A stretch of DNA of 64,000 nt from assembly GCA_001247695.2 (NCBI GenBank), contig LGRX02029311.1, positions 1 to 64,000 of the forward strand. Reading direction: 5' to 3'. The notes below the pieces were generated by a model that was not told the DNA's origin, made no database searches, and saw only the letters and a program-made list of their open reading frames with translations. Source of the DNA: Cymbomonas tetramitiformis. Taxonomy: Eukaryota; Chlorophyta; Pyramimonadophyceae; Pyramimonadales; Pyramimonadaceae. Made by a program: the position numbers and the translations under genes. Shown in pieces: positions 10,329 to 61,330 of the stretch (position 1 is its first letter; every line of letters begins with the position of its first letter).

Positions 10329-11014
10329 TGTGCCCGTGGGCACTACGACAGATTCTCGGAGATATGTTTTTGAGTGAACGTGCAAAGGTACACAATTCGG
10401 ATTTTTATAATATACTGGATCAGGGCCAGATTGAGGTACAAACGATCATTCGGTTCCGAGTTCTGAAGGCTAAACACTTCTCAAGTGCTCCACTTATTCA
10501 CTCGTCACTCAGGTTGCAGGGTCAACCTCTCAACAGCCGATGTCACACTTCGGCTCAACGTTCAATTCCCGATCCGATCTCATTTCTAATTCCGATTCGT
10601 CATTCTTGATTCAGATGTTATGCCGACAGACTGACACGATGACTGTCCCACAGTACTGTCATACTACTGTACTGTCATACTGTCATAGCGTCATACTGTC
10701 ATACTGTCATAACCTTGATATCTGATACTCGATTTCATTGTCTTTTCAACCCCGATGCGAATCCGACCATTCTTCGAGGGTCTGACCGAGTACCACGATG
10801 ACACCCCCCACAGTACTGTCATACTACTATAGTGTCATACTGTCATAGTGTCATAGTGTCATAGTGTCATACTGTCATACCCCGGACATCTGGTATTCAT
10901 TCTCATCGTGATTTCAAGCCCAATTTCACTGTCATCGTGCCAATCCCAGATTACTCCCGATGACACATATACGGACGCATAGGCATATCGGCTCACGCTG
11001 TGCCTCCGGGCACA
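10329..11014 (-). repeat. 3' LTR of element A
   Basis: 686 bp with TGTGCC..GGCACA ends. On its minus-strand upstream side it abuts a polypurine tract followed by the pol 3' end, which fixes it as a 3' LTR. The interior carries two clusters of 8-bp tgtcatac/tgtcatag units (about 10655-10712 and 10815-10880). Confidence 0.85.
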
Positions 11015-11159: not shown

Positions 11160-14100
11160 CTACCAGGGCACCACTTTCGCGGAGAAGGGTGCCACTTGGA
11201 ATCTAAAGCGGGTCTTCAGTCTTGCGGAGGCGTAAATGTCGGAAGAGTTGTCGCAGCAGAAGTGCTGGTACGGGATATACGCTCGCGGATCGGCCCGCTC
11301 CTGTCTGCTGCGGGTGGGGTCCAAGCTGAGCGGTTTCTGGTATTCTGGATGAGCACCGGTCGCCCATCTGCACGCACACGGTGTCGAAGCAGTACAGCGT
11401 AGCAGGGGCGTAGGTGGCGCTGAGTTCGTCCATATGCAAGTGGGCTTCATGTACTGCGTACCATACATGCAGTAGGTACACACCAGCGGAGGGGGAAGCT
11501 GGCGCATCACAGGGCGAAGCCGTAGTGCGTTAGGGAAGCGACCTCTGGGGTTCTCTATGAACCAATGTTTCGGCTCCAAGTAGTCAATGATCTGCAATGC
11601 TCGTCGTACGATTTTGTCAGCCTGGGGAAGGTTAGGAGGTCCACCAGTGGTGCGCGCCTGACCGTACTGCCTACAGGGGGGACTTGCCCACACGACATCG
11701 AAGAATCCAGGCGGGTATTGTTTGTAGTCCCATTGTAGGATGTCACACACATGAGTGGGTTGCCAGATATGTCCAGAGTCGAGGGTCACCACTGAAGCGG
11801 AGGGAAAGCAATTTAGGAATTCCCTCTCTACTGAGCCAGTACCGCTGAAAAGCACGAGAATCCTGGGCGTGCGGGCTGCTTTCGTCTGTATCACCAGCAG
11901 CTCTGTCACCAGTGCCAACGACCCATCTTCCACGCGCTCTTGACGTTCCCACGGCAGAGGGGTATCATATTCCATCCGTTCGAGCTGGTCCAGCTCATCG
12001 CAGGGATTGGTGATGAGGTGGGCCAGTGTCATTCCAGCTTGAGCGGAGTGGCGGCCACGTTGCTCGCGTCGCCGAATGGCTTCGTCGCGAACTTGTGCTT
12101 CCATGTGCAGTCTCGCTTGCTCGAACTCACGAAGCTGCTGAAGTGGACTTCCGCGTTCAAGCTTGTCACGCGTCCTCCATTGGTCGTGAGCTTTGGAGTA
12201 GCCAGTCCAGCGATCCTTCCACTCTTCCACCTCCTTTCCTCGAACAGACCGCACCCGACGTGCAAGAATACGCTCAACGTGTGCTTCCTTCTGACCGTCC
12301 ACTACCACCTCTTCAGGTACTGCTAGGTGGTCGCGTGCGGCGAAAGCATCTTGACCGCTGGTGTACGGTTTGAGGCGATGTTGAGCAAACACGTCGTGTA
12401 TTCGCCAGTGAGGAGGGAGGTGCAGGCGGTAGGCTACTGGAGCTCCCCTGTCAGCCTCTGGCAGGGTCATCTGTACATCACTGAAGAAGCGCTCGGTCAC
12501 GGGGACTGGTCCATGCCAGCGCTTGGTCAATTTCCTGCAGATGGAGCGATCCATCACCTTCTCCGTGAGGTGTTTCGCCTCTATCCAGACCAGATCTCCA
12601 ACAGCATACTCCCGCTGTCCGTGCCTACGATCAAACTGCTCGCGTTGTCGCTGTTGAGCCAGCTCCAACCGCTGTCTAGCGTCCCGCAGTTGCGACGAAA
12701 ATTTCACGGCCACTTCGTGTGCGGTGCCTACTCCCCCTGTCCGTCGCCCAGCGGTGGATTGCGCTGCCTCCAGGAAAAGGTCCAACTGCGACAGCGGCGA
12801 GAACCCGAACACCAGCTCAAACGGCGTGAAGCCAGTAGACTCACATCTGGAGTCATTGATCGCGAACTCCACGTTAGTGGTGAACAGGTCCCAGTCCTCC
12901 ACATTGGCGTCCACAAAGGACCTGAGCATGTCCTCAATAACTCTGTTGCTGTGTTCCGCCTGGCCGTCAGATCGAGGGTTGTATGGCGTGGTACGAGCCA
13001 CCTTTACACCCATCAGTCTCATGAGCTCCTGCCAGAAGGCATCTTGAAACCGCGGGTCACGATCAGAGACAATCTTCATAGGCGCGCCATGTAAGCGCCA
13101 CACTGAGTCGAAGTAGATCCTGGCCACCACAGCTGCGGAGCTGTCGCCGAAGTTCATCGGCACAACGTGGACCATCTTCGTCAGCTTGCAGGTGAAGGCC
13201 ACGAAAGCGTCATTACCTCTCTCTGATACTGGCAGGCCGGTAACGAAGTCCACCGCGACATCCTGCCATGGCCTGTTCGGGATGCTGTGAGGGTTTAGCA
13301 ACCCATCCGGGTAAGTTCCCCGCGGCCTCACTGATTGGCACACCGCGCAGGATGCAACCCAGGTACCCACATCCTCTGCGGCACCACGCCAATAGAAGCG
13401 TCGTAGCACCCTCTCCAGAGTTTTGTCTCGCCCAGTGTGACCCGAGGACAATGACTCGTGAGCATGACGAATCACTACTTCTCGAAGTGAAGAGTCCTCC
13501 CCCAGCACGAGCTGGTATTTCCCTGCTGCGGTCCTCCAAACCACTTCACCCACCAGCCTGAAGTCCTGTAGGCATTGGTGCGGTGCCGCCTTCACTTTCT
13601 CCCGCAGCGAACGAAGTGTTCCCTCTCGGGTGTACTCCGCTCTCAGCGCACGCAGGAACTTTGAGTCCGACTGCTGGGAGGTAGTGTCTCTGAAGGCTGC
13701 TGCCTCACCTGTCCTTATCACAGCGGGGGCTGTCCGCGGATGCCTCACGCGTGCTGGCTGTGGTTTGGCGGGAGGTGCGTGTACTATCAGAACAGGCCAA
13801 CGAAGGTCGAAGGCCTTCCCATCTGGGTTCTCAAAGAACTGGTTGGGCTCGCCCTTATCATCGTGGGTAGGAACAACTTCCACGATCTGCATATTGGCCT
13901 TCCTGAAAAGTTTGCGCCACGCGGGGAGCTTGGACTGATGATCCGGCAGGACGAAGACTGCCGAGGTGTTTTCTGGGTCCGCCTTCCATTCAGCGATATA
14001 CTTGTTCAGAATCGCCTCCACAGTGATGTGCTTGGAGTTATATGGAGGGTTACACCAAATCCGGAGGCCCCTCCATTTCTCTGAAAGGCAGTCTGTCCAG

Positions 14101-15749
14101 AATCTACCTGCCTGTCTGTTGCGGCCACCCAGGTCACAACAGGCGTCCACATCGAAGGGTCCAAACTTCTCGGCGTACTTTGAGGAGTACTCTGCTCGGA
14201 CACGCCAATTCTGCGAGTCCTCTGGTGGGGTCTGTCGCTTCTGTGGGCGAAGGACCGGAGATGGAGCTGGCTGCTGGGGTGCCTGCTGTGGGGGTGGTGA
14301 GCTCGCTGGCGCCTTCTCAGTGGGCGCCTCCGATGCGTCAGCTCGTGAAGCAGGCGTTCGCGTCTTCGGTGACGCCAACTGTGGAGGCGCTGGGGTCGCA
14401 GAGGCTTTCCCAGCGCGTGACATGCTCCTCGTTATCCTTATCTGAGGTGGAGCTCGGTCAGGGGGTTCGTGTGGAGCCTCTGTCGGCTTCGCGCTATCAG
14501 CATCAGGCCAGTCAGGCATGTCGAAGTCGAGGTGGTCCTCCTTCATTCCCTTGTAGAGCTTCGGATTAACGAGAGCGATGGTCTCCCCCATGTCCATGGC
14601 CTGTTCTGCCACGGAGAGGGTTTCCACTGCTGAGAGCCAACAGTCAACCGTCTGGGCCCAGTGAGGGTGAGCTGCGGGTGGTGAGCTGGAGAAGCATTCA
14701 GACTCCAGCGTTGCCAGAGGGTCTTTCGGCAGGTCTGAGGTGGGGTCGATCACTCCTGCCTCCTTCAACCCCTCGCGAACGTCCTTGTCTTTGAAGTCAG
14801 GTCTTCTGGACAGGGCGTCTGGTACCAGCAGTAACGCCCCCTTGATGTACTCCATTCTTGGGACTCCCACCTCCACCAGGTCCATGTACCAGCGTGCCTG
14901 TCTGCGGCTGAGCTCTCTGCCAGGTTCCATCAGCCATTCAAGGGGGCGGTGATCACCCTGAATGCGGAAGTTGGTGAAGATGAGGTAATGCCGCCAGGTG
15001 ACGGTGGTACAATGGTGTAGAGCACCTAGCTCACGCTCGCCAGTGTGGTAATTCTGCTCGGCGGCTGAGAACTGGCGGCTTTCGTATGCTATCACGCGCA
15101 GCCCAAGACCATCTCCGTTGTCTTGCATCAGTACTCCCCCAAGGGCGATGCCACTGGCATCTGTCTGTACCACGAAAGGTGCTGTGCCGTCTGCGGCACC
15201 CTTAATGTTAGGCAAGGCGAGCACTGGCGCTGAGGTGAGCGCCTTCTTCAACTCCTCGAAGGCCCACTGCTGCATGGGACCCCACTCCCAGGGTACGTCC
15301 GACTTGGTCAACCGGGTGAGGGGCTGAGCGATCTCGGAGAAGCAGTGAATGAATCTGCGGTAATACCCCGCCAGGCCCAAGAACTGTCTGACGTGGGTAA
15401 CCGTTTCCAGTTCGGGCCAGTCCCTCACCGCAGCCACCTTGTCGTGTTGGGGCCTGCAGCCATCCGCGGAGATACAGTGACTAAGGAACCGCAAGGACTT
15501 CTTCAACAGTTGGCACTTGGATCTCTTGAGGAAGACGCCCTTCTCCCTGCACGTCAGGAGTAGTTGCTTGACGTGCTCGTAGTGCTCTGCAGCGGTGTTG
15601 CTGAAGACGACCACGTCATCGATGAAGATCCGGACAAATGGGAGATGACCCAAGGCCCGCTGCATCCGTCGCTGGTACTGAGATGGGGAATTCTACAGCC
15701 CCTGCGGCATGACCAACCACTCATATGACCCCATCTGGGTGGTGAAGGC
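11160..15749 (-). pseudogene. Element A pol, 3' part: RT(partial)-RNase H-Dam-like-IN-chromo-C5 MTase
   Basis: An open frame of 1501 residues runs from 15665; the RT homology continues upstream to 15749 but is cut off by a TAG codon (CAG in element B) near 15694 and then by the LTR of B. Order: end of RT with FIDD (about residue 16); RNase H (QTDASG, about 15165); Dam-like N6-adenine MTase with FDVDACC and NPPY (NPPY near 14048); HHCC zinc finger and DDE integrase (about 13480-12900); chromodomain (about 12310-12120); and a C5-cytosine MTase-like domain with FSGTGS (about 11850), SPPCRQY (about 11680) and ENPRG (about 11550). No gag or protease remains. From the ATG to the C-terminus the frame has no break, so loss of activity is recent. 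Confidence 0.85.
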
Positions 15750-16426
15750 TGTGCCAGGGGCACGACGACAGATGCTCGGAGATATGTTTTTGATTGAACG
15801 TGCAAAGGTACACAATTCGGATTTTTATAATATACTGGATCAGGGCCAGATTGAGGTACAAACGATAATTCGGTTCCGAGTTCTGAAGGCTAAACACTTC
15901 TCAAGTGCTCTACTTATTCACTCGTCACTCAGGTTGCGGGGTCAACCACTCGAGAGCCGATGTCACACTTCGGCTCAACGTTCAGTTCCCGATCCGATCT
16001 CATTTCTAATTCCGATTCGTCATTCTCGATTCAGATGTTATGCCAACAGGCTGACACGATGACTGCCCCACAGTACTGTCATACTACTGTACTGTCATAC
16101 TGTCATACTGTCATAGCGTCATACTGTCATACTGTCATAACCTTGATATCTGATATTCGATTTCATTGTCTTTTCAACCCCGATGCGAATCTGACCATTC
16201 TTCGAGGGTCTGACTGAGTTCCACGATGACACCCCCCACAGTACTGTCATACTACTATAGTGTCATACTGTCATAGTGTCATACTGTCATACCCCGGACA
16301 TCTGGTATTCATTCTCATCGTGATTTCAAGCCCAATTTCACTGTCATCGTGCCAATCCCAGATTACCCCCGATGACACACATACGGACGCATAGACATAT
16401 CGGCTCACGCTGTGCCTCCGGGCACA
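15750..16426 (-). repeat. 3' LTR of element B
   Basis: 677 bp, TGTGCC..GGCACA ends, very similar to 10329-11014 but with its own substitutions (ctcgattcag, gccaacaggc). The left edge joins element A RT sequence after gtgaaggc. Carries the same tgtcatac-type clusters. Confidence 0.85.
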
Positions 16427-16442
16427 ACTCTCCCCCCTTAGG
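16427..16442 (-). promoter_or_regulatory. Polypurine tract of element B
   Basis: Minus strand CCTAAGGGGGGAGAGT directly before the LTR start, one G shorter than in element A. Confidence 0.8.
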
Positions 16443-16570
16443 AGTGGTCTACCTCCTGGGATCACTCCGCTAAGGTACCCATCTAAGTTCCAGTTCTTAG
16501 GTTCTCTGGTTCCTTGCTGTTTCCAGTTCTTAGGTTCTCTGGTTCCTCTTCGAGCATAGTTCGCCTGCCG

Positions 16571-18997
16571 CTACCAGGGCACCACTATCAAGAAGAAGGG
16601 TGCCACTTGGAATCTAAAGCGGGTCTTCAGTGTCGCGGAGGCGTAAATGTCGGAAAAGTTGTCGTAGCAGAGTGCTGGTACGGGATATACACTCGCAGAT
16701 CGACCTGCTCCAGTCTGCTGCGGGTGAGGTCCAAGCTGAGCAGTCTCTGGGTGAGCACCGGTTGCCCATCTGCACGCACACGGTGTTGAAGTAGTACAGC
16801 GTAGCAGGGGCGAGGGTGGTGCTGAGTTCGTCCATATGCAGGTGGGTTTCATGTACTGCGTACCATACATGCAGTAGGTACACACCAGCGGTGGGGGAAG
16901 CTGGCGCATCATAGGGCGAAGCCGTAGCGCGTTAGGGAAGCGACCTCTGGGGTTTTCCATGAACCAATGTTTTGGCTCTAGGTAGTCAATGATCTGCAAT
17001 GCTCGTCGTACGATTTTGTCAGCCTGGGGAAGGTCAGGGGGTCCACCAGTGGTGCGCGCTTGACTGTACTGCCTGCAGGGGGGACTTGCCCAAATAACAT
17101 CGAAGAATCCAGGCGGGTATTGCCTGTAGTCCCATTGTAGGATGTCACACACATGAGTGGGTTGCCAGATATGCCCGGAGTCGAGGGTCACCACTGAGGC
17201 GGAGGGGAAGCAATTTAGGAATTCCTTCTCTACTGAGCCAGTACCGCTGAAAAGTACGAGAATCCTGGGCGTGCGGGTTGTTTTTGCCTGAATTGCCAGC
17301 AACTCTGTCACCAGTGCCAACGACCCATCTTCCACGCGCTCCTGGCGTTCCCACGGCAGGGGGATATCATCTTCCATCTGTTCGAGCTGGTCCAGTTCAT
17401 CGCAGGGATTGGTGATGAGGTGGGCCAGTGTCATTCCGGCTTGAGCGGAGTGGCGGCCACGCTGCTCGCGTCGCCGAGTGGCTTCGTCGCGGACTTGCGC
17501 TTCCATGTGCGGTCTCGCTTGCTCGAATTCACGAAGTTGTTGAAGTGGACTTCCGCGTTCAAGTTTGTCACGCGTCCTCCATTGGTCGTGAGCTTTGGAG
17601 TAGCCAGTCCAGCGAACCTTCCACTCTTCCACCTCCTTTCCTCGAACAGACCGCACTCGACGTGCAAGGATACGCTCAACGTGTGCCTCCTTCTGACCGT
17701 CCACTACCACCTCTTCAGGTACTGCTAGGTGATCGCGTGCGGCAAAAGCATCTTGACCGCTGGTGTACGGTTTGAGGCGATGTTGAGCGAACACGTCGTG
17801 AATCCGCCAGTGAGGAGGGAGGCGTAGGCGGTAGGCTACTGGAGCTCCTCTGTCGGCCTCGGGCATGGTCATCTGTATATCGCTGAAGAAGCGTTCGGTC
17901 ACAGGAACTGGTCCATGCCAGCGCTTGGTCAGTTTCCTACAGATGGAGCGATCCATCACCTTCTCCGTAAGGTGTTTCGCCTCTATCCAGACCAGATCTC
18001 CAACAGCATACTCCCGCTGCCCGTGTCTGCGATCAAACTGTTCGCGCTGTCGCTGTTGAGCCAGCTCCAACCGCTGCCTGGCGTCCCGCAGCTGCGACGA
18101 AAATTTCACAGCCACTTCGTGTGCGGTGCCTACTCCCCCAGTCCGTCGCCCAGCGGTGGATTGCGCTGCCTCCAGGAAAAGGTCCAACTGCGACAGCGGC
18201 GAGAACCCGAACACCAGCTCAAACGGCGTGAAGCCAGTAGACTCACATCTGGAGTCATTGATCGCGAACTCCACGTTAGTGGTGAACAGATCCCAGTCCT
18301 CCACATTGGCGTCAACAAAGGACCTGAGCATGTCCTCAATAACCCTGTTGCTGTGTTCTGCCTGGCCGTCAGACCGAGGATTGTACGGCGTGGTACGAGC
18401 CACTTTCACACCCATCAGTCTCATGAGTTCCTGCCAGAAAGCATCTTGAAACCGTGGGTCACGATCAGAGACAATCTTCATAGGCGCGCCATGTAAGCGC
18501 CACACCGAGTCAAAGTAGATTCTGGCCACCACAGCTGCGGAGCTGTCGCCGAAGTTCATCGGCACAACGTGGACCATCTTCGTCAGCTTGCAGGTGAAGG
18601 CCACGAAAGCATCATTGCCCCTCTCCGATACCGGCAGGCCGGTGACGAAGTCCACCGCGACATCCTGCCATGGCCTGTTCGGGATGCTGTGAGGGTTTAG
18701 CAACCCATCCGGGTAAGTTCCCCGCGGCCTCACTGATTGGCACACTGCGCAGGATGCAACCCAGGTGCCCACATCTTCCGCGGCACCACGCCAATAGAAG
18801 CGTCGCAGCACCCTCTCCAGAGTCTTGTCTCGCCCAGTATGGCCTGAGGACAATGACTCATGAGCATGACGAATCACCACTTCTCGAAGTGGAGAGTCCT
18901 CCCCCAGCACCAACTGATATCTCCCTGCTGCGGTCCTCCAAACCACTTCACCCACTAGCCTGAAGTCCTGTAGGCATTGGTGTGGTGCCGCCTTCAC
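16571..18997 (-). CDS. Element B pol, second part: integrase-chromodomain-C5 methyltransferase
   Basis: 808 residues in the same frame as 19028-24151, separated only by one TGA where element A has CGA, so this is the C-terminal part of one polyprotein. Zinc finger H44/H53..C83/C86; catalytic D116, D178, E214 in DFVTG, SDRDPRFQ and GQAEHSN (D,D-35-E), typical of Ty3/gypsy integrase. A chromodomain follows at about 440-500 (AHVERILARR..WTGYSKAHDQW), which should steer integration to marked chromatin. The last ~200 residues form a C5-MTase-like domain: FSGTGSVEKEF (motif I), WASPPCRQYSQARTTG (motif IV with candidate catalytic Cys) and MENPRGRF (motif VI). This pattern matches phage and large-DNA-virus cytosine MTases. 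Whether it methylates the element, the host or nothing is unknown. Confidence 0.88.
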   Translation of the reverse strand: MKAAPHQCLQDFRLVGEVVWRTAAGRYQLVLGEDSPLREVVIRHAHESLSSGHTGRDKTLERVLRRFYWRGAAEDVGTWVASCAVCQSVRPRGTYPDGLLNPHSIPNRPWQDVAVDFVTGLPVSERGNDAFVAFTCKLTKMVHVVPMNFGDSSAAVVARIYFDSVWRLHGAPMKIVSDRDPRFQDAFWQELMRLMGVKVARTTPYNPRSDGQAEHSNRVIEDMLRSFVDANVEDWDLFTTNVEFAINDSRCESTGFTPFELVFGFSPLSQLDLFLEAAQSTAGRRTGGVGTAHEVAVKFSSQLRDARQRLELAQQRQREQFDRRHGQREYAVGDLVWIEAKHLTEKVMDRSICRKLTKRWHGPVPVTERFFSDIQMTMPEADRGAPVAYRLRLPPHWRIHDVFAQHRLKPYTSGQDAFAARDHLAVPEEVVVDGQKEAHVERILARRVRSVRGKEVEEWKVRWTGYSKAHDQWRTRDKLERGSPLQQLREFEQARPHMEAQVRDEATRRREQRGRHSAQAGMTLAHLITNPCDELDQLEQMEDDIPLPWERQERVEDGSLALVTELLAIQAKTTRTPRILVLFSGTGSVEKEFLNCFPSASVVTLDSGHIWQPTHVCDILQWDYRQYPPGFFDVIWASPPCRQYSQARTTGGPPDLPQADKIVRRALQIIDYLEPKHWFMENPRGRFPNALRLRPMMRQLPPPLVCTYCMYGTQYMKPTCIWTNSAPPSPLLRCTTSTPCACRWATGAHPETAQLGPHPQQTGAGRSASVYPVPALCYDNFSDIYASATLKTRFRFQVAPFFLIVVPW

Positions 18998-19027
18998 TTT
19001 CTCTCTTAGTGAACGAAGTGTCCCCTC

Positions 19028-22000
19028 TCAGGTGTACTCCGCTTTCAACGCACGCAGGAACTTTGAGTCCGACTGCTGGGAGGCTGCGTCTCTGAAGTCT
19101 GCTGCCTCACCTGTCCTTATCACAGCGGGGGCTGTTCGCGGATGCCTCACGCGTGCTGGCTGTGGTTTGGCGGGAGGGGCGTGTACTATCAGAACAGGCC
19201 AACGAAGGTCGAAGGCCTTCCCATCTGGGTTCTCGAAGAACTGATTGGGCTCGCCCTTTTCATCGTGAGTAGGGATGACCTCCACGATCTGCATATTGGC
19301 CTTTCTGAAAAGTTTGCGCCACGCGGGGAGCTTGGACTGGTGATCTGGTAGGACGAAGACTGCTGAGGTGTTTTCTGGGTCTGCCTTCCATTCTGCGATA
19401 TACTTGTTCAAAATCGCCTCTACCGTAATGTGCTTGGAGTTATATGGAGGGTTACACCAAACCCGAAGGCCCCTCCATTTCTCTGAAAGGCAGTCTGTCC
19501 AGAATCTATCCGCCTGTCTGTTGCGGCCGCCGAAGTCACAACAGGCGTCCACATCGAAGGGTCCAAACTTCTCGGCGTACTTCGAGGAGTACTCTACTCG
19601 GACACGCCAATTCTGTGAGTCTTCGGGGGGAGTCTGCCGTTTTTGTGGGTGAAGGACCGGGGATGGAGCTGACTGCTGGGGCGCCTGCTGCGGGGGTGGT
19701 GAGCTCACTGGCACCTTCTCGGTGGGCGCCTCCGATGCGTCAGCTCGTGATGGCGTTCGCGTCTTCGGTGACGCCAGCTGTGGAGGCGCTGGGGTCGTAG
19801 AGGCTCTTCCAGCGCGTGACATGCTCCTCGTTATCCTTATCTGAGGTGGAGCTCTGTCAGGGGGTTGGTGTGGAGCTTCTGTCGGCTTCGCGCTATCAGC
19901 TTCAGGCCAGTCAGGCATGTCGAAGTCGAGGTGATCCTCCTTCATTCCCTTATAGAGCTTCGGATTAACGAGAGCGATGGTCTCCCCCATGTCCATGGCC
20001 TGTTCCGCCACGGAGAGGGTCTCCACTGCTGAGAGCCAACAGTCAACCGTCTGAGCCCAGTGGGGATGAGCTGCGGGTGGTGAGCTGGAGAAGCATTCAG
20101 ACTCCAGCGTTGCCAGAGGGTCTTTCGGCAGGTCTGAGGTGGGGTCGATCACTCCTGCCTCCTTCAACCCCTCGCGAACGTCCTTGTCTTTGAAGTCGGG
20201 TCTTCTGGACAGGGCGTCTGGTACCAGCAGCAGCGCTCCCTTGATGTACTCCATTCTCGGGACTCCCACCTCCACCAGATCCATGTACCAGCGTGCCTGT
20301 CTGCGGCTAAGCTCTCTGCCAGGTTCCATCAGCCATTCAAGAGGGCGGTGATCACCCTGGATACGGAAGTTGGTGAAGATGAGGTAATGCCGCCAGGTGA
20401 CGGTGGTACAGTGGTGTAGAGCACCTAGCTCACGCTCGCCGGTGTGGTAATTCTGCTCGGCGGCTGAGAACTGGCGGCTCTCGTATGCTATCACGCGCAG
20501 CCCAAGACCATCTCCATTGTCTTGCATAAGTACTCCCCCAAGAGCGATGCCGCTAGCATCCGTCTGCACCACGAAAGGCGCTGTGCCGTCTGCGGCACCC
20601 TTAATGTTGGGCAAGGCGAGCACTGGCGCTGATGTGAGGGCCTTCTTCAGCTCCTCGAAGGCCCACTGCTGCATGGGACCCCACTCCCAGGGTACGTCCG
20701 ACTTGGTCAACCGGGTGAGGGGCTGAGCGATCTCGGAGAAGCAGTGAATGAACCTGCGGTAATACCCCGCTAGGCCCAAGAACTGCCTGACGTGGGTAAC
20801 CGTCTCCAGCTCGGGCCAGTCCCTCACTGCAGCCACCTTGTCGTGTTGGGGTCTGCAGCCATCTGCGGAGATACAGTGGCCAAGGAACCGCAAGGATTTC
20901 TTCAACAGCTGGCACTTGGACCTCTTGAGGAAGACGCCCTTCTCCCTGCATGTCAGGAGCAGTTGTTTGACGTGCTCGTAGTGCTCTGCAGCGGTGTTGC
21001 TGAAGACGACCACGTCATCGATGAAGATCCGGACAAATGGGAGATGGCCCAAGGCCCGCTGCATCCGTCGCTGGTACTGAGATGGTGAATTCTGCAGCCC
21101 CTGCGGCATGACCAACCACTCATATGACCCCATCTGGGTGGTGAAGGCGGTCTTCTCGACATCTCCTGGTGCCATCGGTACTTGCCAGAAGCCATCCACC
21201 GCGTCAAACGAAGAGAAGAACTTCGCACCCTGCATCTCGTCGAACATCATCTGGATGTCTGGGAGAGGATACTTGTCCTTAACTGTCTGGCGGTTGAGGA
21301 GCCGGTAATCGATCACTAGTCGCAGCTCCTTGGGGTTCCCGGGTTTAGGGACCATCAAACAGGGAGCTGCATAAGGGCTGGAAGAGGGTCGGATGTAGCC
21401 CTTGGACATCAGAGTCTCCACGCGTTCTCGAAGTTGGCGAAGTTCCTCTGCGGACTTCTTGTAGATGCGCTGGCAGGGAGGTCCCTTCTTGCTCAGCTCA
21501 GGGTCCAGGTTAATGTTGGCTTCATCTTGGGGGTCATGTCTGAGTCCATCGATGTTCGGTAGGGCAGTCGTCATCTCCTTCTTGTACTCCTCACCCCAGA
21601 AGTCCTGAAACTTGAGGGTCCACTCAGGGCTCACTTCTGCATCTTCAGTATCCGCAGCGGGTTCGGCGTTCTCAGAGTCGATAGCCGTGGCTGCAAAGGC
21701 AGAAGCAGTATCGTCGGGGGACTTCTCGGCCACCATGAGCCAGGCGGGCTGTATCTCCGGGTCGTCATTGCCGCGTAGCTTCTGCGTCTCCGCATACACC
21801 AGGTACTTCTTCAGCTGGGCAGGGGTCAGGAACACCTCATCCACCAATCCCGCGCAGGCTGTGCCCTTCGGAGACCTGTCCCCAGATGCTTTCCCAGGAG
21901 AACAGCCTGTGATGGTGACGCGATCCCCAATCTTGCCACTGCGGGACTTCCTGAGGAAGGAGACGGAGCCATTCCCTTCATAGCCCAGAGTGACAGGAGA

Positions 22001-24151
22001 GTGACTGCGCAGCCACCTTCCGCCGAGGATAACATCCACCTGTATGCCCAGTGGCAGGATCCGGAGGGCAAGAGCGTTCTCCGTATAGGTGCCCGTGGTG
22101 GTGTGCGTGTTAAACTTGGCGTACGCGGTGGCGCCAGTGATCTTCACAGATCCATCCGCCAGGGTGACTCGCATCTCGGAGCCGGCTCGTGTTGTGAGGC
22201 CACATCGCTTAGCGCTCTGCTCCGAGATGAAGTTGTCAGAGGCCCCCGAGTCAATCAGCACCTTGACCGTGTGCCCTCTGAGGGTTGCGTAGAATACCAG
22301 CAGTAGCGGTCCTTCTTCGTCATGTGCCGCTGCAAGGGTACCCTCGATGTCGGTCTTCCACTGAACTCCCCCATCTGTGCGTATGCTTTTGCACTTGAGG
22401 TTGGGGAGGAGGTTGTCCGAGGCCTCGCGGCATTCTTCCAACGTTTGCCTACACGCGGCGTAGAACTCCTCATCCAGCAAATCAACATCTTCAGGCGGAT
22501 GACTGACGAGGTTGTCTGCACTCGCCGTCAGCAGGGTGCCCGCTGAGGTGCATTCGCTCGAGGTGGGGCTGACATGAGTGGTGTCACTGGTAGTAGGGCT
22601 CACATGTGTAGTGCCACTGGTGGTAGGGCTAACATGGGTAGTGCCGCTTACTGTGGGGCTCACGTGGGTAGTGCCGCTTGTTGTGGGGCTCACATGGGTA
22701 GTGACACTATTGGTGAGACTGCCATGGGTGAGAGGATCCTCGTCATGCTGAGGGCTGCCAGCAGGGGAGTTGTGGGCGAGCTGGTGGGAGCTCTGGTGGT
22801 CAGTTCTCGTCTGAGGGGTCTCAGCTGCTGCCATCTGCTGGGTGAAGCAGAGCGAGTTGACCGAGGACTCCTCTTCCATCACCTCAGGGTCTTCAGCGAT
22901 GGGGTGGCTGTCGAGACAGGGTGGCGCTTCATCCGCTTCATGCGTTTTGACGGTGGTTATCTGCTGGGTGAAGCAAAGCGAACTGGGTGCGGAGGTCTCC
23001 TCCGCCTCTGAGCAGTAGGATGAACCTTCGGGGTTTCCTCCCGGAGTGGCCGGCGCGTTATCATGGTGCGAAGATGTAGTCTCTGTCGTGGGCTCGGCCA
23101 GCGAGGATGATGGAGGGGATGCTCCCAAGGGGCTGGGACCCAGCTTCCTCATCTTGTACTGGTGTACTGCGTGCAGACTGCACCAGGCGCCAGGTAAACC
23201 CACATCTCCCGCTGTCCCAGGTATCGTGCCCACTTCAGTGTCCAGGGTGCAGAGGGATGTCGAAGACCTCGCTGCTGCTCTTCGTGCGCCCTCCTTTTCC
23301 CACAGCCTGCTACCTGGGGAAGAGTCTGGACTCGAAGTGGCGATTGCCTTTTGCTGCTCGGCAGGCGACAGCTCTCTCCAAGCCGCGTAGAGGTCGTGGG
23401 AGCTGGTGTTAGAGGATTCGGGGACTTGCTGGCGACCGTCGTGTGAAAGGAGGTGCCACAATGCTATGCGCTGATGGCCTTCCTTGCGATCTTGAGGTTC
23501 GCGGGCAATGCGTATCCTCTCTGCCAGCTGGTTGGCGCGGTTCACGCGCTCCTTTGGCGATCGACTCCCAGAGTGTACGCGGCTGCGGACGCGCTCCGAC
23601 ATCTTATCCACCAGGTCCTTGGCAGCCTCTGGGGACTTGCGCAGAGCTCTGCGGACCTTCTGCATGGCGACTTCGAGGGGGAGGGAGTACAGATCTCTCT
23701 TCCAGTGCCACGCAGTTAGCCTTTTCCGTGGGTCTGCGAGGTTGGACTGATAGATGGGCAGCGGTAGGACAACACGCGGTCGGGAGCGAAGGTCGCGGGG
23801 CTCTCCGCGGTTGTTGCCCATAATGGGGGGTCTGTGCCGGGGAACTCGCCGTCCCCTCCGACCCTCGATCCTCGCTTGTGTATAAGCGGGGCCGTCATCG
23901 AGAGGTAGCGACGGCTCATCGAAGGGGGTGCTTCCTGCGAGAGGGTGGCTGGACAAGTCATCCCTCGGCGGCGATTGGGCACCAGCTGAGCGGTAGGTGC
24001 GTCGCAAGCGGGTCCCAGAGGTGAAGGCCACACTCTTGGGGTGGGGACGTTGGCCCCAAGGGTCTCTGCGTCCTCGGGCGCGTCGGGGTTCCACTGGTTC
24101 TGACCGCTTCTCCAGGGCGGAGAGGGTCTGATCATCAGGGCAAGACCTCAC
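19028..24151 (-). CDS. Element B pol, first part: protease-RT-RNase H-Dam-like MTase
   Basis: 1707 residues ending at a TGA (CGA in element A). The N-terminal ~550 residues are Ser/Thr/Arg-rich without a known fold. They include a THVSPTTSGT repeat near 570 and the phrase TEVGTIPGTAGDVGLP, shared with element C. Aspartic protease LIDSGASDNFIS at about 630; RT from about 900 with FIDDVVVF at about 1045; RNase H with QTDASGIALGG at about 1195; Dam-like N6-adenine MTase at about 1520-1660 with FDVDACC and WCNPPYN (NPPY about 1568). The frame overlaps the end of gag in the -1 frame and the first possible start is GTG, so expression by frameshift or reinitiation is more likely than an independent start. 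Confidence 0.88.
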   Translation of the reverse strand: MRSCPDDQTLSALEKRSEPVEPRRARGRRDPWGQRPHPKSVAFTSGTRLRRTYRSAGAQSPPRDDLSSHPLAGSTPFDEPSLPLDDGPAYTQARIEGRRGRRVPRHRPPIMGNNRGEPRDLRSRPRVVLPLPIYQSNLADPRKRLTAWHWKRDLYSLPLEVAMQKVRRALRKSPEAAKDLVDKMSERVRSRVHSGSRSPKERVNRANQLAERIRIAREPQDRKEGHQRIALWHLLSHDGRQQVPESSNTSSHDLYAAWRELSPAEQQKAIATSSPDSSPGSRLWEKEGARRAAARSSTSLCTLDTEVGTIPGTAGDVGLPGAWCSLHAVHQYKMRKLGPSPLGASPPSSSLAEPTTETTSSHHDNAPATPGGNPEGSSYCSEAEETSAPSSLCFTQQITTVKTHEADEAPPCLDSHPIAEDPEVMEEESSVNSLCFTQQMAAAETPQTRTDHQSSHQLAHNSPAGSPQHDEDPLTHGSLTNSVTTHVSPTTSGTTHVSPTVSGTTHVSPTTSGTTHVSPTTSDTTHVSPTSSECTSAGTLLTASADNLVSHPPEDVDLLDEEFYAACRQTLEECREASDNLLPNLKCKSIRTDGGVQWKTDIEGTLAAAHDEEGPLLLVFYATLRGHTVKVLIDSGASDNFISEQSAKRCGLTTRAGSEMRVTLADGSVKITGATAYAKFNTHTTTGTYTENALALRILPLGIQVDVILGGRWLRSHSPVTLGYEGNGSVSFLRKSRSGKIGDRVTITGCSPGKASGDRSPKGTACAGLVDEVFLTPAQLKKYLVYAETQKLRGNDDPEIQPAWLMVAEKSPDDTASAFAATAIDSENAEPAADTEDAEVSPEWTLKFQDFWGEEYKKEMTTALPNIDGLRHDPQDEANINLDPELSKKGPPCQRIYKKSAEELRQLRERVETLMSKGYIRPSSSPYAAPCLMVPKPGNPKELRLVIDYRLLNRQTVKDKYPLPDIQMMFDEMQGAKFFSSFDAVDGFWQVPMAPGDVEKTAFTTQMGSYEWLVMPQGLQNSPSQYQRRMQRALGHLPFVRIFIDDVVVFSNTAAEHYEHVKQLLLTCREKGVFLKRSKCQLLKKSLRFLGHCISADGCRPQHDKVAAVRDWPELETVTHVRQFLGLAGYYRRFIHCFSEIAQPLTRLTKSDVPWEWGPMQQWAFEELKKALTSAPVLALPNIKGAADGTAPFVVQTDASGIALGGVLMQDNGDGLGLRVIAYESRQFSAAEQNYHTGERELGALHHCTTVTWRHYLIFTNFRIQGDHRPLEWLMEPGRELSRRQARWYMDLVEVGVPRMEYIKGALLLVPDALSRRPDFKDKDVREGLKEAGVIDPTSDLPKDPLATLESECFSSSPPAAHPHWAQTVDCWLSAVETLSVAEQAMDMGETIALVNPKLYKGMKEDHLDFDMPDWPEADSAKPTEAPHQPPDRAPPQIRITRSMSRAGRASTTPAPPQLASPKTRTPSRADASEAPTEKVPVSSPPPQQAPQQSAPSPVLHPQKRQTPPEDSQNWRVRVEYSSKYAEKFGPFDVDACCDFGGRNRQADRFWTDCLSEKWRGLRVWCNPPYNSKHITVEAILNKYIAEWKADPENTSAVFVLPDHQSKLPAWRKLFRKANMQIVEVIPTHDEKGEPNQFFENPDGKAFDLRWPVLIVHAPPAKPQPARVRHPRTAPAVIRTGEAADFRDAASQQSDSKFLRALKAEYT
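22560..22730 (-). repeat. Coding repeat THVSPTTSGT
   Basis: About five 30-36-bp units (gtagtgccactggtggtagggctcacatg type) encode THVSPT(T/V)SG peptides in the linker before the protease. Element E has the related THVSATDSD repeat at the same place. Confidence 0.85.
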
Positions 24152-27131
24152 TTCCCCGAAGGGCAGGGTCTGGGGCTGGCCGCCGGCCAGTCATTCATCG
24201 CTCTCCACCAGGGGAAGGCCGTCACCCTCCACAAGCTCGATGCCCGCACGGGCCGCCAGGGTCTGATAGCTCTGCTCGTCCTCACAGGTAGCGAGAGCCA
24301 GGACCTCCTCGGAGAACTCTTCTGGGACGCCATCCACCAGGAGATGTCCTCCTGCTGCTCGATGGCCCAAACGACGGCGGCTACATACCCAGGGGAGTTC
24401 GCCAGTCGAGCGGGTGCATTGGCCCTCCACTCCTTGAGCTTAGCCTCGTCCGTACAGTTACGGACGATGTGCTCCGCAGAGCCGCAGGCGAAGCACCGGC
24501 GGACTTTCGGAGCATCAGGGCGGGAGAGGCCAGGTGGTGGTGGCAAAGGAGTCACTGCCGCGGCGACGGTGGTGGCAGGCCCGTTCTCCAGCATGGCAAG
24601 AGCTGGGCGGTTCGAAGAGGGGGTACGCCTGTAGAAGGGGGTGCGAGGTGGTGGGTTAGCGAAGGAAACAGCACGGGGAGGACGGTCTTGAGAGCGCCTC
24701 TGAGCCGCCTCCGTGTCAATGTCACTCTCCACCTCCTCAGCAACTTCCCGAATCTTCAACAAGGCGTTGTGGGTGCCTGGGATGTCGTCAGCGACGGCCT
24801 TCCTCTCCCACTCTTCTGGTTTGGAGACATCCAAGTGGATGGCTCTCAGGCGCCGCATCACCTTGGGTGCATATTTCAGCCCCCGGCGGTACGTAGAGAG
24901 CATCGACAAGTTGGTCATCTCCACGCAATTTGGGACTCTGCCGGCCAAGAAGTTGACGGAGGCCATGCGGGTCTCCAGTCGCGAGAAATACTCCGCCGCG
25001 GTCTCGTTCACCGCCTGCTTCAGGGCAATGGCCTCGCCGTGTGCGTTCTCCAGGTAGGCCTGCGTCAGAGAGCACACCGCCAGATCGCTGAAGAACACGT
25101 CCAGCTCCCCGTAGCGTTGGTGCCAAGCTTGCTCGGACCCAAAGGTCCCCGCCGCGCGCTCCAAGAACTTTCTCTGCTGGTCTTGAAGAGTGTACTCCTT
25201 GAAGCTCCAAAGAAGGCTTGACACACTCGCCTGGTACTCTGATACTGATGGCGTACAACTGGGAGTGGTCAGTGCTTCGATCACGATGGCCTCCTGGAAT
25301 ACCTTCCGCACCATGTGGGAGTAGTGCTCCAACTGCGTCAGGAGGCCCTCCTTGTCGGCCGATTTTGTGTCGGACGCGGAGCGGGGGAACCTGGTGACGC
25401 TCTTGACCAGCTTTAGCACCATCTCTTTGGTCTTGTGCTCCAGGCGGACCTCGTCTGGAGATGCTCGCAGGTTAGTGCCCTGCGGCAGACGGACGATGCC
25501 TGGAACAAAGGGGGTGGCACTGGGAGAGAGCACGGGGTTTGCAGCGGCGGCAGAGTGAACGGGGTTCACGGTAGCGGCAGAGTGAACGGGGTTTGCGGCG
25601 GCGGAATGGGGAAAACGGGCAGGAGGTGATGGTCCCGGGGCATGCGCGGGCGGAGGCGCAGGCGCGGGATTTGTGGGGACTGCGGTCGGAGTGGGCGGTA
25701 ATGTAAGGGCTGATGGTGGTGCGGGGAGTGGAAGAGGTGTATGGAAGGGCAGGGGTGTGGATGGTTGTGCGGCCACCACGCTCATGCTCCGGTACCAATC
25801 GGAGTTGCTGACCTCCGACCACGCGGCGAGCCCGTCCTGATCGAAGTTCTGCATCTCCGACTCCCGCGCAGTAGCAGGGATCCACTCCCATACTGGCTGC
25901 CCCATGCTGGTAGACCGCACATTGGCCGCGGCTGGGTCCCCCATTGCCATATCCATGACCTCGCGGTCGACCATAAGGACCCAGGTCTCCACACGAGGGT
26001 TGGTAAGGGGTAGGGGTGCATGGTGTAGCCGGCCCCCCATGCGCGCATATGCAGTCAGCGGCGCTCCCAGCAGGTGCATGATCCTGAACAAGATGGCGTC
26101 GCCCTGCACCCCAGCCCGGCGGCGTTCGTCCCATGGTAGGGAGACGGTTGCCGCGCCTCGCACCCCAGCTGACTGGTGCACCCACAATGACCCACCATCG
26201 TGGGTGACGAAGAGGGCTCTGACCTCTGGGTACTGAGGGTAGGAGGGCTCTGGTGCGGGATCGTCAGGGGGATCCTGAGGTGGATCACTAGGGGGGCCTG
26301 GTGGCGAGTCGCTTGGACTGGAGTCTCTGGGCTCTGAGTCGGGATTGCCACCGCCGTGCACCACCGTCTCCATCGACTGCCGCCGGCGGGCCACCATCAT
26401 GTTATGGGGATTTGGCCGGCCCTGAGTGGGAGGTTCGGCGGGAGCGGTCTCAGCGGCGGTCTGAGGCACTGGAGGGGTTACGCTGGCGGCGGCGTCTGCC
26501 TCGTGTAGATGGTCCGCCGTCAGGCCCTGTGCGCTGCCCTGAGGGTCGCCTGGTGGGGAGGCTCCTGCCGATGTCGTCGCACCAGGCAGCGCGAGTCCTC
26601 TCGAGAGCACCGCGGAGATGTCCAGGGCCTGTACTGCCGCTAGGACTTCTCTGCGAATGTGTTCACTTCGGCTGCTCGCGTCCGAGTCAGAGCCGGACCT
26701 GTGGGCGGCCCTCCGCCTGCGCTCAGCCCGTGCCTGCGTGCTTCGGCTGCCTCTGGTCCCCGTGCTGGTGCGGCTGATGTCCGTGCCGGAGTCGGGGTCA
26801 GAGTGATCAGGTGCGTGGCTTGGACCTGGGAGATGCTTGCCGTGTGTCGCAGGGCCCGAAGATGCCCTTCGGGAACGTCGACGCCGGCGAGTCTCTGAGG
26901 TTGTCGCCACCGCGGGAAGGTGGCGCACCAAGAGCTGGGTACCGCCCAAGACGTTCTGCTGAACCCCGCTGTCAAGGGGTACCTGCAGAGGGTCCGGCAG
27001 GGCCGCGGCGCCGATGCTGATGAAGTGCTGCAGCGATGAGGGATCCGCGCCTGAGTCATGAAGCGCGGAGGTGGCTGGTGCCAGCTGATGGGGCTGCTGT
27101 GGTCGATGTTGCGGCTGTTGTGGCGGCTGCG

Positions 27132-27168
<37 letters not shown>

Positions 27169-27675
27169 TAACTGCTGCTGCTGTAACTGCTGCTGCTGTA
27201 ACTGCTGCTGCATCGGTTCCAGTGGCTGCTGTTGAAGCCACTGCTGTTGCTGCTGCTGGTACGCGAGCCACTGCTGCTGCTGCTGTAGCTGTTGTTGGAA
27301 CGGTGTGGGATATGCGCCCACGGGGTGATGGGTTCCCAGTGTGAACGGCACTGGTGATACTCCCCCAGCGAGGGGCGCTGATTGGGGCAATACCCAATTG
27401 ACGCCGTTCCATACAGCCTGTGCGGGGGTGCCATCCGGCATAGTATAAGGGCGGGGCACCGCTGTGTAGGGCATGGTGGTGCCTGGATGTGGAATGGGGT
27501 GAGCGGAAGCATATGCGGAGGGCGATGGGAAGGTTATGGGAGAGAACAGAGTGTGGTGTAGCTGCTCTGCACTGACACTCATGCTGGGAAATGCCTCTGA
27601 TGTCTGCTGTGACATCCTGATTGCTGAGCTGGTTGAGATCAAGGACTGGGTGTGGCAATAGCCACAGGTGAGCAA
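24148..27675 (-). CDS. Element B Gag polyprotein with zinc knuckle
   Basis: Up to 1175 residues. The first start is TTG at 27675; an ATG a few dozen residues further in (MSQQTSEAFPSM) is the likelier real start. N-terminal ~230 residues are Gln-rich (CAG-type tract at about 27110-27300), then Pro/Ser-rich disordered sequence, then a helical capsid-like region (about 780-1010) and one CCHC zinc knuckle CFACGSAEHIVRNC near the C-terminus (about 24450-24495). The knuckle binds RNA during packaging in this family. The stop overlaps pol. Gag of element E is clearly related in the capsid and knuckle, but its N-terminus is quite different. Confidence 0.82.
27110..27300 (-). repeat. CAG/CTG-type trinucleotide tract (poly-Gln)
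   Basis: Runs of ctg on the plus strand encode long Gln runs broken by Leu and Pro in the Gag N-terminus. This is a typical slippage-prone tract. Confidence 0.9.
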
Positions 27676-29255
27676 AGTGGTGAGTGCTCGCCTTTTTTAT
27701 TTAATTAGTCTCGTCCTCTTCGATGTCGCTCGCTGGAGGCGAAGGGGCGGGACTTCCAGGTGGTGATGGGGGAACCCAATCAGCGCCAAGGAGGACCCAA
27801 GGGGGGGCGTCGATCACTTGTATTGCCTGGAGATGCCACACGTGGTCGTAATGTACTGGTGGGATAGCCAGCGTGACTATATCCAGGCGCTCAGTTCTCC
27901 TCCTCGTCGTCAGAGGAAGAGGGGGAAGGAGGACCGCTCCAAGGACCGCTCTGCCAGAAGGCGCCTGCTGGTGGGTAGGTGGGGTCTGGAGGGAATACCC
28001 ACTTGATGGGTCCTTGTTTCCACCACGCTCTTCTGTATTCTTCTGGCGAAGGGGGTACTGCCATGCACCGGCGAACTCAAAATTTCGCCAGGGCTCCGCG
28101 ACACAGATTTCAAGTGCCTATGTATGCAGGCAGGGGTCGAGGAACTGCAACCAGAAAGCTCAGCAAGGTCCCAGAAGGTAACCGGACTTCGTACACTCCC
28201 AAAATATTCCAGCCAGAGGGTAAACCAGAGGTGTCCAGAAACTGTCCAGAAACTGTCCAGAAGCCACTAAAAGAGCTGTTTTGAGGGGCTTTCCCAGCTG
28301 CTGGTGGCCGTGAGGGCGGTATTGGGGGGTTCTAGGGTGTTCTATGGGGTCTGGGGAAGGAGTTTTTGGTGGTGGGGGCTACTGTGGAAGGTTTCGGGGT
28401 AGGCTGAAAACGGGCTAAAACGGCTATTTTGGGCTGTTTTTGGCTGTTTTTCGCCTTTTTAAGGCTCTAGAAAGTGGGCTATGAGGTTTTCCTGGCTACT
28501 ATAAACCGGGGAAACCCTTTAGGGTGCTCCCTGACGGTTGTTTGTAGCCTGGGGCAGACTTGGAAGTTAAGATCGGAAAACGAATGTTGACTTTTCTGAG
28601 CCTGGTTGGGCCCCCAGTGTTAAGGGGCGAAAATATGAAGTTTTGGAGATGTTTTCCAAAGGATACGGCCGTTGTATACGAAAAAAAATGTACTTACGGA
28701 GGCTAAAATTGCGCCCAGATAGCCGGAAGTGCAGCTCTCCCCCTGTATTACAACGGAAGTTACAAAAGGCCCGTGGGCGAGTTGCGCAGAGGCGAAATCG
28801 CAGCACGCTGATACCAAATGTGCCAGGGGCAGCAACTTAAATTTACCGGGATTAACAGCCCGATTGACCCGAACGGAGAGTGGAAAGTGCACCAGTGGTC
28901 AGATTGAGAAAAGAGGACCTCGGAGACAGTTTTAACGTGGACACAAAAATTCCAGACGTTTCTTGATAGTTTTTTGTCGTTTGGAACCTGGCCCCGACAC
29001 CTGGGTCCTCATAGATCGCTACATTTTAAATTGGGATGGCCGATCGGCACGACAGAGCCAAATTAGACAAATTTGAGCCCATCGGACTACATAGGGGGAA
29101 ACGAGAGCCCAGAAGGAGAATTTTCTATTTTTTTAATATTCTTTGAAAGAAGAAAATAGTCTACAACACTGGGACCTGGTCAATTTGTCTGGATTGCTCC
29201 GGGATGGCCGCCAAGAAATTGGCCAAACTGCCGATTAACACTCAATTTTTGAAAT
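27676..29255. other. Unassigned stretch between elements B and C
   Basis: Nothing coding is convincing. The LTR sequence of A/B is absent, so B has no visible 5' LTR. A TATAAA box (about 28500) in ggctactataaaccgggg, several TTTTTGG/GGCTGTTTT phrases (28385-28465) and a tandem tgtccagaaac (about 28232-28260) could belong to the 5' LTR or leader of element C, but I cannot define LTR ends. Confidence 0.4.
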
Positions 29256-46400: not shown

Positions 46401-46402
46401 CA

Positions 46403-54508: not shown

Positions 54509-54549
54509 ATCTCCATCGACCCCGTGGACAGAGGCAGCCCTATACCAAT

Positions 54550-61166: not shown

Positions 61167-61328
61167 ACACTCGATTTTAAGAAAACAGGAATTTTCGGGC
61201 AGCCTAGCAAATTTCTTATTTATATAGAGATCTTAAATATGGAGTGTTATGTGTTAAATATTGTGAAGAAACCAAAAAAGCTGGCTACTTTCTTATTGGC
61301 GGGTTTTCTTATTACCGAGTGATTACTG
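61161..61328. mobile_element. TA-flanked MITE (Tc1/mariner-like), 168 bp
   Basis: Terminal inverted repeats CAGTAAACACTCG and CGAGTGATTACTG (12 of 13 match), each flanked outside by TA, the target duplication of Tc1/mariner elements. AT-rich interior in a GC-rich gene, no coding capacity. Removing it with one TA joins ..APPI to VRQGKAA.. in frame, aligned with APAVIRTGEAA of element B. Confidence 0.88.
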
Positions 61329-61330
61329 TA

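Follow-up and report, generated by a model that had tools for sequence, protein, structure and literature searches.

A 64,000-nucleotide stretch of the Cymbomonas tetramitiformis genome (referred to as the window) raises the question of whether a single retrotransposon polyprotein can carry both an adenine and a cytosine DNA methyltransferase and, if so, where the two domains came from and what they might do for the element. The initial annotation had proposed a Gypsy element with a Dam-like domain between RNase H and integrase and a C5-like domain after the chromodomain. Both placements were confirmed: Pfam matches and the ORF list identify elements A and B as two copies of one Ty3/Gypsy chromovirus, both on the minus strand, with a Pol order of (PR-)RT-RNaseH-Dam-integrase-chromodomain-C5 according to profile matches. 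The Dam-like domain scores over the PF05869 cut-off in both copies, and the C5-like domain matches phrog_757 in both and PF00145 in B. We have very little doubt about this identity and architecture, a Ty3/Gypsy chromovirus Pol with a Dam-type N6-adenine methyltransferase and a compact C5 methyltransferase.

In element B, a gag-like ORF of 1182 aa (24148..27696, minus strand), whose CCHC knuckle match is weak (PF00098, 17.1 bits, cut-off 20.8), overlaps the pol ORF by 43 nt in a different frame. The first part of B pol (19028..24190, minus strand) contains Pfam matches for protease (22019-22288), RT (20876-21352) and RNase H (20273-20683), followed by the Dam-like domain with its FDVDACC and NPPY motifs (19115..19624, coordinates from tblastn; PF05869 2.4e-7, phrog_111 1.3e-11), and stops just past Dam at an in-frame TGA (19028-19030), where A has a sense codon. 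The second part, after the stop (16571..19027, minus strand, Pfam), contains H2C2 (18722-18895; 63.6 bits, over the cut-off of 25.5), the rve integrase core (18377-18676; 24.4 bits, under the cut-off of 32.6), SH3_Tf2-1, a chromodomain C-terminal to the integrase (17522-17683; PF00385, 29.9 bits, cut-off 25.1) and the C5-like domain with its FSGTGS, SPPCRQY and ENPRG motifs (16658..17302, coordinates from tblastn; phrog_757 6.7e-17, PF00145 8.2e-5). The PR-RT-RNaseH-IN order of pol is present in B and in protein cluster P0002 (Pfam). A purine tract precedes the B 3´ LTR (15750..16426, minus strand; TGTGCCC...GGCACA), which was read from the sequence and from LTR pairs elsewhere in the genome.

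Element A is a 5´-truncated pol running from mid-RT to C5 (11160..15749, minus strand; ORF, Pfam and junction), with RNase H (14874-15284), the Dam-like domain (13713..14222, tblastn; PF05869 1.9e-7, phrog_111 3.8e-12), IN (12975-13496), a chromodomain (12120-12281; 20.5 bits, below cut-off), the C5-like domain (11247..11900; phrog_757 2.1e-14) and a 686 bp 3´ LTR of the form TG...CA (10329..11014; sequence, and LTR pairs in genome copies), all on the minus strand. Self-comparison of the window gave 94% identity between A and B along 5.4 kb. A starts inside RT at 15749 and the B 3´ LTR ends at 15750; since this junction is an exact LTR end, the sequence points to B having inserted into A as a nested copy, and a tandem duplication was set aside for the same reason. 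Neither the 5´ half of A nor a B 5´ LTR was found by self-comparison of the window, which contains only the 3´ LTRs.

Neither copy is intact, because of the TGA in B and because the end of the C5 domain is out of frame in both, relative to protein P0002, after HPE near the C-terminal end in A and over the last residues, after YPVPAL, in B. A diverged relative, element C (54439..62449, plus strand; Pfam, tblastn), encodes protease-RT-RNase H (57299-59989), a Dam domain between RNase H and IN (60660-61160; 7.6e-13) and an integrase (61208-62449), all on the plus strand, and ends after IN, with no C5 found downstream by Pfam or tblastn. In element D, a second methyltransferase-like stretch (DPWAGTG, SPWF) is without a match in Pfam or PHROG. 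The nesting and damage of A and B and the lack of C5 in element C are what would be expected if the domains were functionless passengers or if the architecture were an assembly or annotation chimera, a reading against which the wider survey described below argues so consistently that we consider it very improbable.

The profile evidence for the two domains differs in strength. PF05869 gave 31.3 bits for A and 31.0 for B against a cut-off of 28.1, covering profile positions 3-78 of 169, and the phage equivalog TIGR01712 scored 20 on the Dam domain, far below its cut-off of 97. PF00145 gave 22.6 bits for B against a cut-off of 22 and was not reported for A. Both domains thus have profile support, Dam from PF05869 and phrog_111 in A and B, and C5 from PF00145 in B and phrog_757 in both. 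NPPY is intact in the Dam domains of A, B and C. The rows of the C5 alignment retain an FSGTGS-like motif (last G in 41/45), SPPC (45/45) and ENP (45/45), together with K.T.IWT, C/H-rich and YP.P stretches, which may correspond to the target recognition domain and motifs VIII-X.

Structure prediction and comparison model both domains as methyltransferase folds, one adenine-type and one C5. For the C5 model, in which the final 27 residues have pLDDT <50, structure comparison ranked DNMT3 first; a C5 profile search of PDB returned DNMT2-type proteins and DNMT1, with DNMT3 absent among the 30 matches listed, and the C5 trees described below include no Dnmt3 sequence. The Dam model has a pLDDT of 85.9, and its Foldseek ranking is weak, with three matches <1e-3 and other Rossmann methyltransferases mixed in; a profile search of solved structures with the Dam alignment gave no matches. 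By structure, the Dam model matches PCIF1 best, which methylates cap adenosines, and next come RNA methyltransferases such as KsgA, METTL5 and Erm. Given also that the domain adjoins RNase H and that a PCIF1_WW match and a C5 fragment occur together in one protein (P0055), we considered that the Dam-like domain might methylate adenine in RNA, either the element genomic RNA or a cap, and not in DNA, an alternative that we regard as unlikely. The reading that we favor is that the two domains modify DNA, and we think it somewhat probable that both enzymes are active on DNA in most members of the group.

To what extent A and B represent their family was assessed in the 851.7-Mb assembly (25,745 contigs). 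The closest named proteins to the Dam region are CYMTET proteins of C. tetramitiformis, at 92 and 91%. The IN-chromodomain-C5 frame of B was found at 97-100% identity in at least 55 scored places, B included (18,839 first-look candidates), and 18 of these 55 copies occupy open frames of 2,515 aa or more, one of these copies having a stop within the match. Thus, although A and B are damaged, the survey for intact copies that had been suggested uncovered long open frames elsewhere. In a PF05869 search of the genome, all 150 scored places were over the cut-off (7,257 candidates), DIRS-type frames among them. RNase H, Dam, IN and C5 were colinear on a single strand in 18/18 genomic stretches fetched, which represent two main families and one further type. 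These stretches were chosen from matches to the B IN-C5 frame or to protein cluster P0035, so that within this colinearity only the occurrence of Dam and RNase H was not fixed by the selection. The Dam match in one stretch (L168) and the RNase H match in another (L167) are each split in two, which indicates frame damage.

For five of nine copies tried, both LTRs and a 5-bp target duplication could be read from the flanks. The five LTR pairs have 8, 1, 4, 2 and 3 mismatches and 0, 8, 31, 3 and 12 gap positions. A further copy, C20118, has part of the 5´ LTR only, with 2 mismatches in 223, and no 5´ LTR was found in the pieces fetched for C6210, C6282 and C3035. Genome copies have a purine tract upstream of the 3´ LTR, and the sequence after the 5´ LTR resembles what we take to be an initiator-tRNA-Met primer site. 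Since the LTR pairs and target duplications occur on copies with long open frames, the family moved recently with both domains in frame. These LTR pairs with target duplications, and the same architecture in all 18 stretches on other contigs and in many metagenomic clusters, count against the passenger or chimera explanation raised above.

Searches with the Dam and C5 regions of A returned 15 and 51 proteins, respectively, 56 of them distinct and mostly Gypsy polyproteins from Cymbomonas and metagenomes. According to domain profiles, Dam precedes C5 in all 46 protein clusters matching both. Of the 32 clusters that are 1,700 aa or longer, 26 have both domains well aligned; among these 32, P0048 is without a Dam match, P0052 has a weak Dam match (18 bits) and is counted as lacking Dam because the match is below the span threshold, and C5 is absent or cut in four (P0005, P0006, P0011, P0049). 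Motifs were counted only in proteins whose match covered 110 profile positions or more for Dam, or 130 or more for C5. SPPC is intact in 43/43 clusters with C5 aligned, and NPP[YF] is present in 34/46 clusters with Dam aligned and in 17/26 full-length clusters. The conservation of catalytic residues on which the initial annotation depended therefore holds throughout for SPPC but is not universal for NPP[YF]. Across families, C5 is less dispensable than Dam. The two profile libraries, the predicted folds, the open frames and this cross-family conservation together indicate that the domain pair is more than chance.

The nine full-length clusters without NPP[YF] include P0047, with 90 members, so not every lineage requires 6mA. 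Among the 12 exceptions overall, P0046 has SPPY, which may still work, and P0017 begins inside the domain; removing these leaves ten clearly changed Dams, and because the ten clusters sit in several branches, Dam probably lost its catalytic activity repeatedly. The changed Dams are still recognizable, some in multi-member clusters, whereas SPPC is always kept, as might be expected if only C5 works as an enzyme and Dam is mainly a nucleic-acid-binding or structural Pol module for which catalysis is optional. Against this stand the 34 clusters that keep the motif, the intact NPPY of A, B and C, and the predicted methyltransferase fold. Taken with the low Dam dN/dS reported below, these lead us to rate a non-catalytic Dam as a minority possibility.

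Trees of RT, IN, Dam and C5 for 25 elements share six to nine well-supported splits per comparison, with none or one contradicted. The trees are thus in step, which indicates that both domains were inherited together with the element. The distribution extends beyond the family of A and B: P0035 (195 members) has a best identity of 42% over long matches in the Cymbomonas genome, with its C5 part reaching 50%, and given this low best identity, P0035 likely has other hosts. A chromodomain lies between IN and C5 in P0002, P0029, P0035 and P0045. By pattern, a PHD finger follows Dam in 5/56 proteins (P0031, P0032, P0033, P0036 and P0045) and precedes IN where scanned; P0045 has both the PHD finger and the chromodomain.

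We also compared substitution rates between A and B. The dN/dS was 0.006 for RT plus RNase H, 0.016 for IN, 0.041 for SH3 plus chromodomain and 0.059 for Dam, with the linkers, taken as a control, at 0.095, 0.159 and 0.122; the value for C5 was 0.197 with the A frame break included and 0.137 (0.029/0.210) over 179 codons. Pooled pN/pS values from up to 12 copies were 0.087 for C5, 0.068 for Dam and 0.023 for IN and RNase H. In comparisons between families, dS is mostly saturated. The dN/dS of Dam and C5 is far below 1, which is difficult to reconcile with passenger domains. Between A and B, C5 is no more constrained than the linkers, a point in favor of that explanation and one indicating that the whole frame is constrained and that this comparison reveals no special constraint on C5. 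The stronger evidence for C5 constraint is the invariant motif across families, and motif conservation of this kind is not readily explained by one capture event and subsequent decay.

The initial annotation had suggested that both domains were virus-derived. This part of the proposal divided: C5 has viral kin, but Dam groups with DIRS-type retroelements. The Gypsy Dam profile scored 138 and 123 bits against two frames of DIRS type (RT-RNaseH-Dam) in the Cymbomonas genome and at most 63 bits against ORFs of the fetched IMG/VR loci, which had been picked out by peptide patterns (57 loci). The DIRS label of these two frames (L259 and L260) is based on the RT-RNaseH-Dam order, as in PMC3266345, and on an RT that we take to be of DIRS type. 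Pfam reports RT and Dam in L260 and Dam only in L259, and no tyrosine recombinase was found in the neighboring frame or in frames of at least 60 aa in the next stretch. In a Dam tree of 95 sequences, which omits P0015, P0017, P0051, P0053 and viral ORFs with short matches, the Gypsy and DIRS-type sequences form one clade (48/48, UFBoot 90) with none of the 39 viral sequences kept falling inside. Plain identity does not separate the two groups, as A Dam is alike in identity to DIRS-type (36-37% over 101-140 residues) and to the best viral sequence (36% over 110); the grouping with retroelements comes from the tree and from the alignment score (201-211 for DIRS-type vs 142 for the best viral sequence). 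A phage origin of Dam was examined by tblastn against 50,697 phage records, of which four matched, at 35% over 66 aa, and was rejected. Nine matches turned up among bacterial genomes; the strongest, L250, is itself part of a Gypsy pol carried in a MAG, which probably reflects contamination by eukaryotic DNA. In the sequences sampled, the Dam arm is thus common to other retroelements and not to phage, and a virus-derived adenine methyltransferase was not supported.

For C5, the nearest named relative is a gene of a giant algal virus, Tetraselmis virus 1 (A0A2P0VN45; 41% over 192 columns, TM 0.70), which is also the best viral structural match, in agreement with the viral kinship suggested at the outset. 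This putative cytosine DNA methyltransferase (Oceanusvirus, Allomimiviridae) is a free-standing viral gene of 218 aa, whereas the C5 described here is a Pol domain. Relatives of C5 at <1e-3 numbered 4,226 among 7,997 candidates scored, many of them free-standing and of 200-220 aa, and among the 120 listed is P0160, named for Oceanusvirus sp. The 98 sequences of the C5 IQ-TREE comprise 14 viral sequences, 28 of the 29 chosen retroelement C5s and 56 free-standing genes (195-226 aa, starting with M); an earlier C5 tree omits P0015, P0025, P0041, pieces <120 aa and eight identical sequences. The retroelement C5s fall in strong clades (UFBoot 99-100) with free-standing genes among them, while P0046 and P0048 fall elsewhere, so that the retroelement C5s are not monophyletic with respect to free-standing metagenomic genes. 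Sequence comparison thus suggests that C5 was likely exchanged with viruses, in either direction, since the lack of monophyly does not fix the direction of transfer. Direct phage origin was considered and rejected, the candidates being 13 phage records at about 30% and the best 80 IMG/VR loci (31-42%), which lie outside the retroelement and free-standing group in trees. A scan of IMG/VR with P0160 gave no match, whereas A3 as the query matched 80 loci at 27-37%. Among named sequences C5 is closest to a giant-virus gene, and the Dam tree sets Dam apart from the viral Dams sampled.

The sharing of C5 with a giant algal virus, together with the endogenous giant and Polinton-like viruses reported in the Cymbomonas genome (PMC10675990), could suggest a host benefit in which the element methyltransferases act against incoming DNA viruses, and an antiviral role has been proposed for accessory domains in general in a review (PMC6338049). 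The domains sit in Pol and track the element phylogeny, and nothing ties them to viral DNA, so we hold such a role to be improbable.

The best reading overall, which we put at about an even chance, is that the element uses the two enzymes to methylate its own cDNA or the site at which it inserts. As both writers are inside Pol and flank the integrase, they would be on hand during cDNA synthesis and insertion: Dam and C5 would accompany RT and IN in the particle or integration complex and methylate the element cDNA or the DNA around a new insertion, such that a new copy might arrive with marks that the host takes for its own. That such marking is the function under selection is a serious possibility, at slightly less than even probability. 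The methyltransferase of a Symbiodinium DIRS has de novo activity on CG, and those who described it propose that cDNA is methylated after reverse transcription (PMC5890265).

Two observations run counter to own-DNA marking, the natural loss of the Dam motif and the absence of a CpG-linked C>T excess in 12 copies. In these copies, singletons numbered 26 at 380 CpG sites and 78 at 1,249 other C/G sites (0.068 vs 0.062 per site), and the CpG o/e of the elements was 0.81-0.85 vs 0.89 and 0.82 for two further stretches, although prasinophytes reportedly retain their CpG even where 5mCG is high (PMC12695648). With no CpG deamination footprint, heavy self-methylation is neither supported nor refuted by the mutations.

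The neighbors of the two writers suggest a more specific version of own-DNA marking. Since a PHD finger adjoins Dam in some families and a chromodomain adjoins C5, the elements may contain two reader-writer pairs. C5, directly downstream of the chromodomain, could form a reader-writer pair in repressive chromatin, with 5mC serving as self-camouflage or as a brake set by the chromodomain that would lessen host damage, and Dam, followed in some families by the PHD finger, could add a permissive 6mA mark of transcribed chromatin. Where eukaryotes possess AMT1, 6mA is found between nucleosomes marked with H3K4me3, and 5mC takes the repressive side; at the first nucleosomes of active genes in Micromonas and Ostreococcus, 5mC gives way to 6mA (PMC12695648). 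We tentatively suggest, as a conjecture more likely wrong than right, that this algal chromovirus clade possesses a two-armed epigenetic kit, Dam (with PHD) and chromodomain-C5, mirroring the host split between 6mA/H3K4me3 and 5mC.

Single captured methyltransferases are already known from retroelements. KnitGypsy-Dnmt3 of Klebsormidium nitens (de Mendoza et al., 2018; PMC5890265) likewise has a Gypsy Pol with a C5 methyltransferase domain under purifying selection, but is reported there with a Dnmt3-class C5 methyltransferase only; the Cymbomonas element differs in its compact C5, whose nearest named relative is in a giant virus and which comes after the chromodomain, and in the additional Dam. 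DIRS1-like retrotransposons have the same RT-RNaseH-methyltransferase pol order, with a methyltransferase function that, in the words of that report, "still remains unknown" (PMC3266345), but DIRS elements have a tyrosine recombinase, whereas the Cymbomonas Gypsy has an H2C2 and rve DDE integrase, LTRs, target duplications and a second methyltransferase, C5. SymbioDIRS-Dnmt3 and SymbioLINE-Dnmt of Symbiodinium are retroelements with a C5 methyltransferase, with CG activity shown for the DIRS one, but belong to other element classes and, as reported, have a C5 methyltransferase only (PMC5890265). Chlamyvir-type chromoviruses in Cymbomonas likewise have a Ty3/Gypsy pol with a chromodomain, in a paper whose main text does not contain the word methyltransferase (PMC10675990). 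ParB-methyltransferase proteins occur in DNA transposons (PMC12477816), and a review refers broadly to Gypsy and DIRS elements that encode DAM and DCM (PMC6338049). In the open-licence literature searched, C5 methyltransferases are described in Gypsy, DIRS and LINE elements and Dam in DIRS, and no element containing both was found. The suggestion that the pair in one polyprotein is undescribed fits this literature. What appears to be new is both methyltransferase types in one LTR retrotransposon, co-inherited and with readers adjoining.

These findings point to an exchange of DNA-modifying domains among LTR elements, DIRS-type elements and giant viruses. Cymbomonas offers a recently active, many-copy family in an alga already sequenced with nanopore reads (PMC10675990), and the natural changes in the Dam motif provide built-in comparisons. 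With both methyltransferases in one Pol, co-inherited and recently active, the role of retroelement methyltransferases becomes directly testable. If the two-armed kit were true, new copies would be delivered marked on both chromatin sides, with arms common to DIRS-type elements and giant algal viruses.

Domain profiles revealed a Gypsy-like element on the plus strand (element D, 40211-48914) that is distinct from the damaged chromovirus copies A and B, with RT-RNase H followed by a C5 methyltransferase domain and then integrase. The C5 domain matches PF00145 (2.5e-9) and carries the motifs GFPCQDLS and ENV, and the element also encodes a PHD finger (PF00628, 8e-13). The C-terminal part contains the motifs DPWAGTG and SPWF; this stretch, which was without a match in Pfam or PHROG, looks like a second, degenerate methyltransferase. 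Element D represents a second Gypsy lineage with C5 and PHD domains in the window, apparently distinct from A/B.

Self-comparison of the window detected two direct duplications within element D, 43431-43884/43898-44350 (99.6%) and 46174-46932/47164-47921 (99.9%). The 233-bp spacer of the latter pair recurs at 7368-7600 with 100% identity. These near-identical duplications could be an assembly artefact or a real insertion. The same comparison identified long coding tandem repeats (EHATSSASHATC...) in element C, a diverged Gypsy relative, at 56115-56977 and 59695-60401, the second tract lying between RNase H and Dam.

We also noted an LTR fragment of the A/B family (33193-33682, 97% to the LTR of element A), which lacks its terminal part and adjoins the broken end of a different Gypsy pol (29253 to ~33193). 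Two minus-strand tRNA genes were predicted with equal scores (7879-7951 and 8400-8472), each inside one copy of a 258-bp repeat (copies 99.6%).

Related domains were also found outside the window. A contig assigned to the Verrucomicrobiaceae MAG TMED86 (L250, NHEN01000032.1) has a 953-aa Gypsy frame with RNase H, Dam and integrase, probably eukaryotic contamination of the bacterial genome. A single predicted EukProt protein (P0055, 945 aa) combines a PCIF1_WW match, a weak RNase H match and the beginning of an A/B-type C5 domain; PCIF1 also ranked first among the structural matches to the Gypsy Dam model. The compact A/B-type C5 domain is likewise present in proteins P0077 and P0095 of the dinoflagellate Prorocentrum minimum (44% identity), which may derive from a retroelement, a host gene or contamination.
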